A stretch of DNA of 64,000 bases from an uncultured Gammaproteobacteria bacterium (GTDB lineage: Bacteria > Pseudomonadota > Gammaproteobacteria > PS1 > Pseudothioglobaceae), in contig CACLHR010000003.1 of assembly GCA_902606745.1 (NCBI GenBank), forward strand, positions 1 to 64,000, given 5' to 3'. Below the pieces are notes generated by a model, which worked only from the letters and a program-made list of their open reading frames with translations, searched no databases and had not been told where the DNA came from. Below, piece by piece: positions 50,713-52,816 of this stretch (position 1 is its first letter; every line of letters begins with the position of its first letter). Made by a program: the position numbers and the translations under genes.

Positions 50713-51113
50713 TGTTTCACCTTTTTTAATACCTCCCATACTGCTCTTTTAAGGGCTGGATTTTCCAGAATGTCTCTTGGATGGTGAGTAAAGAATAGAT
50801 TATCTGAATTAGAGTTGATCGACTCTCCCATAACCAAGACGACTCTTGCTGGATGATTCTTAATACTCTCTTCAAGGTCTCCAGATTGAATCGAGATAGA
50901 AACCGTATTGTTTAGTGACAAACCAATCGAAGATAACATCTTTTCTAACAATTTTTTACTATCACCTGGCTCACAAAAAGATTTCTCTGGGTTAGTTTCT
51001 ACCAATAAACATTGAACACTAATTTTAGTTTTTTGAATTGAATCATTCTTGTTATAAAGAAACTCAGGTATGCCTAGAGCCTCAAGATAGTCATTTCTCA
51101 ATTCTGGGGTCAT
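50700..51113 (-). CDS. HolD-like protein (DNA polymerase III psi subunit candidate)
   Basis: 137-aa protein of uncertain family. The N-terminus ([20 protein letters not shown]) resembles that of HolD, which has a similar RRDWQLQQLGI start, and the C-terminus ([20 protein letters not shown]) resembles the end of the psi/uracil-DNA-glycosylase-like fold (LxxxPxxKRxxW). Length matches HolD. No active-site residues of a glycosylase are visible. It sits between leuA (4-nt overlap) and queH. The function is inferred from similarity by eye only. Confidence 0.5.
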
Positions 51114-52642
51114 ATTTGTGGGTGCTCCCTCTCTACATTTTCCATTACTTTATTCAATGCTTGTACATAGGCTTTAGCTGAAGATGTGATAATATCAGTA
51201 TCAACCCCCTGTCCGTTAACAATTTTCCCCTCATACTCTAGTCGAACATTAACCTCTCCAAGAGAATCAGTACCCTGAGTAACATTTGTCACTGAATATA
51301 ATTGCAATTTTGGCTCAATATCGACCAAAGATAATATTGCATTGAAAGTTGCATCAACCGCTCCTGAAGTTTTTGCAGAGGCGCTTTTCTCCTTGCCATC
51401 AACTAAAAGGGTGATTTTTGCAGTATTTTCTTTACCCGTCTCGGTACAAACTTTCAGTGAAATTAGACGGACAAATTCTGTAGCCTCAGCCTGAGCTTCT
51501 GTAACCAGTGCTTGAAGGTCTTCATCAAAGATATCATGTTTCTTGTCGGCGAGCGCTTTGAATCTTGAAAATGCATTATTCAATTCATCATCTGAATCAA
51601 ATTCAACACCTAATTCACTCATTCTCACTTTAAATGCATTCCGACCAGAATGTTTACCCATTACAAGGGTATTGGTATGCCAACCAACATCTTCTGCTTT
51701 CATGATTTCATAGGTTTCACGGTGTTTAAGAATACCATCCTGATGGATTCCAGCCTCATGAGCAAATGCATTAGCACCAACAATTGCCTTATTGGGTTGA
51801 ACAACAAAGCCAGTAATAGATGAAACCAGTCTCGAGGCAGCTAAAATGTTTTTGGTGTCAATGTTTGTGTCACAACCAAAGATATCCTGCCTTGTACGAA
51901 CCGCCATCACAACCTCTTCAAGGGATGTATTTCCTGCACGCTCTCCTAGACCGTTGATAGTACACTCTATTTGTCTTGCCCCGTTAAGGACTGCTGAAAG
52001 TGAATTCGAAACTGCTAACCCTAGGTCATTATGACAGTGGGCTGAAAATATTGCTTTGTCAGAGTTTGGCACTCTTTCGATAAGTTCTCTCATGGTTTCA
52101 CCAAACTGGTGAGGGATGTTATAACCAACTGTATCAGGAATATTAATCGTTGTTGCACCAGCATTAATAGCAGCTTCAATGATTCGGCACAAAAAATCAA
52201 CGTCAGATCGGCCCGCATCCTCGGGGCTAAATTCAATATTGTTAGTAAACTTTGTCGCTCTTTTAACGGATCGAATGGCTTGAGAAACCACTTCATCTGG
52301 TGTCATCCTTAATTTCATCTGCATATGAATGTCGGATGTCGCAATAAAGGTATGTATTCTCGCTGAATTGGTATTTTTTATAGCTTCACCTGCACGATCT
52401 ATATCTTTGTCAAGCGCTCTAGCGAGCGAACAGACAGTTGAATCTTTTACAGCTTTTGCTACTGCCTGTACTGCCTCAAAGTCACCCTGAGAGGCTATTG
52501 CGAACCCAGCTTCAATGACATCGACCCGCATTTTTTCCAAAATCTTAGCAATACGAACCTTCTCGTCCTTGGTCATCGAAGCACCTGGTGATTGTTCACC
52601 ATCTCTAAGAGTTGTATCAAATATAATTAATTTATCGGACAT
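51110..52642 (-). CDS. leuA: 2-isopropylmalate synthase
   Basis: First committed enzyme of leucine synthesis: condenses 2-oxoisovalerate with acetyl-CoA. The catalytic barrel begins [19 protein letters not shown]; the metal His pair lies in [17 protein letters not shown], and [20 protein letters not shown] is conserved. The C-terminal LeuA allosteric domain (about residues 385-510) is present, so leucine feedback is expected. The length of 510 aa is normal. A leucine-rich leader peptide precedes it (52721-52795). Confidence 0.96.
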
Positions 52643-52688
52643 TATTTGCTCCTTGTTATTGTTTCAAATATAAGCTTGAGTAATAGTG

Positions 52689-52704
52689 ATAGACTTTCGT
52701 CTAT
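52689..52704 (-). promoter_or_regulatory. Second hairpin of the leuA leader (switch element)
   Basis: ATAGAC-GAAA-GTCTAT in the RNA (6 bp, GNRA-type loop). Its first arm (with the next G) is also complementary, 7 of 7, to the RNA at 52800-52794, which includes the leader-peptide start codon, so the two pairings exclude each other. No T run follows, so it is not a simple terminator. Confidence 0.5.
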
Positions 52705-52711
52705 TGAGATC

Positions 52712-52733
52712 ATTATTGCCTTACGGCAATAAT
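52712..52733 (-). promoter_or_regulatory. First hairpin of the leuA leader
   Basis: ATTATTGCC-GTAA-GGCAATAAT (9 bp) overlapping the stop codon of the leucine-rich leader peptide. A ribosome stalled on the last Leu codons would cover its first arm. Confidence 0.55.
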
Positions 52734-52795
52734 CGCAACAACGCAAGAAGGTTGTCCAATGAAAGAGAAATTAGCAAATTTGTATTTGTTCTCAT
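52721..52795 (-). CDS. Leucine-rich leader peptide ahead of leuA (leuL-like)
   Basis: 24-codon ORF, too short for normal calling. It begins MRTNTNLLISLSLDNLLALL and ends RLLP: ten of 24 residues are Leu, with four tandem pairs in the C-terminal two-thirds. It lies entirely between pssA and leuA, 78 nt before the leuA start. No Shine-Dalgarno is visible; a TATAAT (52809-52804) would start transcription only about 1-3 nt before its ATG. The architecture matches ribosome-mediated attenuation of leucine genes in proteobacteria. Confidence 0.72.
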   Translation of the reverse strand: MRTNTNLLISLSLDNLLALLRLLP

Positions 52796-52816
52796 AGACG
52801 CTGATTATAAAGGAAC

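Follow-up and report, generated by a model that had tools for sequence, protein, structure and literature searches.

In the actinobacterial LEU element (Seliverstov et al. 2005), a leader ORF with Leu codons lies before leuA, a base stem pairs these Leu codons with the Shine-Dalgarno sequence, and the structure includes either two internal helices or a pseudoknot, with no terminator (PMC1262725). The Streptomyces leader LeuL1 is leaderless and is likewise without a terminator (PMC8079986), while mutants of a similar actinobacterial element were reported as not fitting classical leader-codon control (PMC1262725). The leuABCD attenuators of the Enterobacteria and Shewanella (Leu_leader) employ terminator and antiterminator hairpins (PMC2659441). 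In Campylobacter, LeuL is a peptide of 20-35 aa with C-terminal Leu codons that is encoded upstream of leuABCD; it has a ribosome-binding site, and its RNA ends after the leader stop codon, indicating termination (PMC3847290).

Here, we describe an element upstream of leuA in a 64,000-nucleotide stretch of DNA from a small, uncultured marine gammaproteobacterium, the whole of which is referred to below as the window. As judged from the published description, its anatomy appears strikingly like that of the actinobacterial LEU element. In both, leuA is preceded by a leader ORF in which Leu codons form a run, and the base stem has a predicted equivalent (P1) in the clade of the window, which is modest across the class and weak or absent in some lineages. 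The two differ in that the window element belongs to another phylum and another class of enzyme gene, its leader C-terminus and hairpins are different, and the loop of one of its hairpins (P2) contains the leader stop codon. Like the enterobacterial and Shewanella Leu_leader, it is a gammaproteobacterial element with a Leu-rich leader peptide ahead of leuA, but it has neither a terminator nor an Rfam match. The leader also resembles Campylobacter LeuL in its length and in having Leu codons toward its C-terminus, whereas LeuL has been described with a ribosome-binding site and termination.

Results

The leuA leader region

The source genome comprises 1.36 Mb in 63 contigs and is 82.5% complete. 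On the minus strand of the window, the genes are ordered ilvB, ilvN, ilvC, pssA, and leuA, the last of which (51110..52642) matches the 2-isopropylmalate synthase models NF002087 and TIGR00973 of NCBIfam above cut-off and is the putative gene under control. About 20 bases past the end of pssA begins the leader ORF leuL (52721..52795, minus strand; MRTNTNLLISLSLDNLLALLRLLP), which reads, as originally predicted, as 24 codons including ten for Leu, with four adjacent Leu pairs among them. Its TAA stop codon (52723-52721) is separated from leuA by a 78-nt gap. Two hairpins are present on the same strand, both of which had been recognized previously. The first, P2 (52712..52733), consists of 9 bp closed by a GUAA loop (ATTATTGCC-GTAA-GGCAATAAT); its 5' arm encodes Leu-Leu-Pro and the leuL stop codon sits within its loop. 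The second, P3 (52689..52704), has 6 bp and a GAAA loop (ATAGAC-GAAA-GTCTAT). Overall, the 198-nt leader region is more stably folded than its own shuffles (z = -2.9).

The original prediction had remarked that no T run follows the last hairpin, and indeed no intrinsic terminator, i.e. a GC-rich hairpin with a U-run, was found before leuA at this locus; the sequence 3' of P3 is A-rich throughout the genus alignment. It had suggested Rho-dependent or translational control instead of classic termination, and control is probably translational. Between P3 and the Shine-Dalgarno sequence (52690-52656, minus strand) lies an A/T-rich segment, TTAAGATAAAAT in the genus, that might serve leuA as a second -10, and no good -35 was seen for it. 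When the region ahead of ilvB was read (57002-56858, minus strand), no leader rich in Leu, Ile, or Val was seen. Thus, the leuA leader may be the sole leader-type switch of the ilvB-ilvN-ilvC-pssA-leuA run.

No ribosome-binding site was seen upstream of the leader ATG in the window sequence. A TATAAT hexamer (52804..52809, minus strand), a candidate -10 for a promoter belonging to the leader itself, has its first T 14 nt upstream of this ATG, so that a transcription start site at ~52798-52795 would yield a leaderless or nearly leaderless mRNA. This placement had been regarded as odd, but the presence of the hexamer is not peculiar to the window. Every sequence of the genus alignment has it unchanged apart from locus L023, whose aligned segment begins later owing to an insert, and 57 of 69 family members have it starting 12-17 nt upstream of the scored leader ATG. 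Of 50 leaders from across the class, 26 also have a -10-like hexamer no more than 18 nt from the ATG, mostly beginning 12-14 nt before it, compared to 5% in shuffles. From this recurrence in family and class, the near-leaderless -10 can be regarded as a conserved feature rather than an oddity.

Conservation in the genus and family

The leader, P2, and P3 are present in all 23 genus members having leuA, and leuL is exactly 24 codons long in 22 of them. The L023 leader (L023:1282-1416, genome G026) carries a 20-codon in-frame insert for a total of 44 aa, with the ALLRLLP end, P2, and P3 all retained. Each of the 11 genera in the family was further found to have the leader and both hairpins. Of 83 genomes from the family, 72 were matched at E≤0.1 by a covariance model built from the genus (R1), and 75, including 49 of 49 near-complete ones, by a core model built from 46 diverse members (R2). 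Within its own genome, the leuA leader locus is the sole R2 match at E<1.

Variation within the genus alone is too scant for a covariation test. In the core alignment of the family, however, 8 of 13 pairs vary on both sides, amounting to 91 cells, a value that none of 500 shuffles reached, and pairing registers slid by 1-3 columns fail the same test. Most of this covariation comes from P3, where the signal is strong and all six pairs change on both sides across the family, with some contributed by P2. In the latter, the arms are exchanged among TTGCC/GGCAA, TTACC/GGTAA, and CTGCC/GGCAG, all of which leave the pairing intact and keep the Leu codon.

Comparison of related genomes was less favorable to the switch that had originally been proposed. 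In that scheme, P3 and a pairing between its arm ATAGACG and the RNA around the leader start codon (CGTCTAT, 52800-52794) would exclude each other. The 7-nt complementarity is real in the window; however, it extends to 7 nt in only three of the 23 genus members and to 2-5 nt in the others. Therefore, whereas the Leu-rich ORF is kept and both hairpins show changes on both sides, the alternative pairing is not conserved and was rejected as the switch.

Distribution across the Gammaproteobacteria

Searching 369 gammaproteobacterial genomes with R2 yielded one further genome, in which the match lies just upstream of leuA and the leader ends in ALLRLLP. A DNA pattern scan of species genomes identified at least 80 loci, and of 83 loci checked (the pattern-scan loci together with three R2 loci), 33 lie directly before leuA, including those of Salinisphaerales and relatives of Nevskia. 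Since the pattern itself presupposes RLLP, conservation of the peptide was instead judged on an unbiased sample, for which the DNA upstream of leuA was taken from 80 genomes spread over many families; orientation could be established for 77. An upstream ORF with at least five Leu among its last 14 residues was found in 65% of these 77, compared to 2.4% in dinucleotide shuffles, which upholds the view that a leucine leader peptide serves leuA; a recognizable leader is missing in part of the class. Similarly, 66% of 50 class leaders have a strong hairpin whose loop contains the stop codon, compared to 7% when the flanks are shuffled. On this comparative sequence evidence, it is close to certain that the leuA leader of the window is a real leucine leader element.

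The position of P3 is occupied by CCTGGCGAGG in 27 of the 77 class members (among L266-L345), and in 26 of the 27, ACGC or ACGT occurs a few bases 3' of it. The two segments could possibly form a small pseudoknot (GCG with CGC or CGT), and there is one covarying case, L339, in which both candidate sides are altered (GACG with CGTC). No pseudoknot was seen inside the element in the family of the window.

Rfam matched the window just once, at the bacterial small signal recognition particle RNA (RF00169; 21554-21649, plus strand). No other Rfam family reached its gathering threshold there, leucine leader and T-box included, and raising the cut-off to E = 10 returned only below-threshold, chance-level matches. 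The loci of 20 class relatives likewise had no Rfam family match, which leaves the candidate pseudoknot uncovered as well. No leader-peptide family of Pfam or NCBIfam was matched, such short queries having low power, and no gammaproteobacterial description of the element was found in the open-access literature searched, subscription papers lying outside its scope. Thus, the element occurs before leuA over much of the Gammaproteobacteria, and none of the searched libraries of RNA or protein families contains a model for it.

Predicted pairing of leader Leu codons with the leuA Shine-Dalgarno sequence

Minimum free energy folds of the leader region repeatedly joined the Leu codons of the leader to the leuA Shine-Dalgarno sequence, a pairing overlooked in the original prediction. 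In the window, the 5' arm of this putative stem P1 is CTTCTTG (52744..52750, minus strand), an anti-Shine-Dalgarno sequence comprising Leu codons 16-17 and the first base of codon 18, while its 3' arm is CAAGGAG (52649..52655, minus strand), which includes the Shine-Dalgarno sequence. Possible extensions would pair 52742-52737 with 52663-52658 and 52759-52753 with 52641-52635, the latter covering the leuA start codon. The unpaired probability of the window Shine-Dalgarno sequence is 0.04 and rises to 0.28 after synonymous recoding of the leader. Among 69 family members, the Shine-Dalgarno sequence is less accessible than in recoded versions in 46 (Wilcoxon p = 0.0015, the sequences being related rather than independent). 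For 45 class members of many families, its pairing to the leader is 0.59, compared to 0.49 with permuted codons (p = 0.02), while no significant difference from the codon-permuted controls is seen in its overall accessibility (p = 0.12). No P1 changes on both sides occur within the genus, and genus g9, the L009 type, and L014/L024 have a weak P1 or none at all. Some P1 complementarity would also come free, since the Shine-Dalgarno sequence is under constraint of its own and Leu codons are by nature rich in pyrimidines. Considering the recoding, permutation, and lineage results together, P1 appears well supported in the window clade and some other groups, modest across the class, and not universal. 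Accordingly, universal sequestration of the Shine-Dalgarno sequence was rejected as a description of the element, as several groups and the window clade show strong predicted masking and others show none.

The folding model was also applied with a ribosome placed on the leader. In the window clade, the Shine-Dalgarno sequence is 0.05 unpaired without a ribosome and 0.06-0.09 with one at codons -3 to -1 from the leader end, whereas P-site positions from -14 to -4 leave it 0.23-0.56 unpaired. Over this latter range, the A site receives Leu codons 13, 16, 17, 19, 20, and 22. A class-wide model of ribosome position points weakly in the same direction (p = 0.018), and in genus g5, a ribosome stalled past codon -10 is predicted to leave the Shine-Dalgarno sequence masked. 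As modelled, the geometry would suit translational attenuation, because a stalled ribosome covers the anti-Shine-Dalgarno sequence and a terminating one leaves it free. Based upon these folds, a switch formed by the leader Leu codons and the leuA Shine-Dalgarno sequence appears better supported than one formed by the leader start and the P3 arm.

Discussion

Our results lead us to propose, with moderate confidence, that leuA is under leucine-responsive translational attenuation, in which a leaderless leader peptide governs whether the leuA Shine-Dalgarno sequence is masked or freed. Transcription would probably begin at the leader's own promoter, and we infer that ribosomes start directly on the leader AUG. 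With ample Leu-tRNA, the ribosome would reach the stop codon inside P2, after which codons 16-18 would be free to pair with the leuA Shine-Dalgarno sequence in P1, enclosing P2 and P3 and leaving leuA untranslated. When Leu-tRNA is scarce, the ribosome would stall at the C-terminal Leu codons and cover the anti-Shine-Dalgarno sequence, such that leuA is translated. The element thereby probably lets the cell make this leucine enzyme only when leucine is scarce. In the ermC and cat translational attenuators, a ribosome stalled in the leader similarly frees the Shine-Dalgarno sequence of the next gene, although these systems sense antibiotics rather than the supply of aminoacyl-tRNA; the likeness of the leuA switch to them is one predicted by the folding model.

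Several other mechanisms were considered. Once the ribosome is released at the leader stop codon, Rho might load on the stretch preceding leuA (52690-52656), which is untranslated and poor in G, and terminate transcription. This would agree with the lack of an intrinsic terminator at the locus. Leader-controlled Rho termination is established for the tna operon of E. coli. Even so, the gap spans just 78 nt, accommodates two hairpins, and is rich in A and U instead of C, all of which would make it a poor Rho site, and the pairing of Leu codons with the Shine-Dalgarno sequence would go unexplained. We therefore consider Rho-dependent attenuation unlikely.

It is also conceivable that P2 and P3 are the site for an RNA-binding regulator and that the leader peptide is secondary, as has been proposed for the actinobacterial LEU element. 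The conserved structure and tetraloop of P3 would be in keeping with such a site, as would CCTGGCGAGG followed by ACG[CT] with its possible pseudoknot in 27 of 77 class members. However, the strong class-wide selection for Leu codons requires that translation of the leader matter, and we find a regulator-binding site of this kind quite improbable.

A third mechanism would be an arrest peptide like TnaC, whose nascent chain senses free leucine or another ligand and halts the ribosome at RLLP-stop. In its favor, the RLLP preceding the stop codon is near-invariant in the family, even though its last Leu codon varies synonymously (TTG/TTA/CTG). Much of this conservation nevertheless follows from the RNA, as the P2 arm CTGCC itself encodes Leu-Pro, and many class leaders end differently (LRLPR, LRLPH). 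Moreover, in four symbiont genomes of genus g5, which are reduced to ~1.0 Mb (G033, G042, G037, and G034; loci L087, L091, L102, and L143, respectively), a stop codon has replaced the Arg codon that precedes LLP, giving a leader that ends ...FLL*, while P2 is mostly retained (mismatched in L143); these copies may be decaying. In view of these features, peptide-mediated arrest seems very improbable. Separately, the leuA Shine-Dalgarno sequence has seemingly been lost in G036 (L142), and both this loss and the early stops possibly represent decay in symbionts. Lastly, a classical leucine attenuator like that of enterobacterial leuABCD, with a competing antiterminator and intrinsic terminator, would account for a Leu-rich leader before leuA and a hairpin holding its stop codon, but is extremely improbable given that there is no hairpin with a U-run, the sequence after P3 is A-rich genus-wide, and the Rfam leader families are unmatched.

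Returning to translational attenuation, the anatomical likeness to the actinobacterial LEU element raises the rather unlikely scenario that one ancient leucine-sensing translational attenuator, with a leaderless mRNA and built partly around a pseudoknot, acts upon leuA in both Gammaproteobacteria and Actinobacteria, in which case the window would contain a reduced, pseudoknot-free version. An unusual aspect of the gammaproteobacterial element is a leader peptide that is seemingly initiated without a ribosome-binding site in many families. Likewise, its Leu codons would double as the anti-Shine-Dalgarno sequence, since these pyrimidine-rich codons complement AGGAG. The covariance model could allow the element to be annotated widely. 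If our interpretation is right, leuA in much of the Gammaproteobacteria would be under the control of an element that is unlike the textbook enterobacterial leu attenuator and has no entry in any of the RNA or protein family collections searched, and it would equip small marine genomes, in which few regulators are known, with a leucine sensor.
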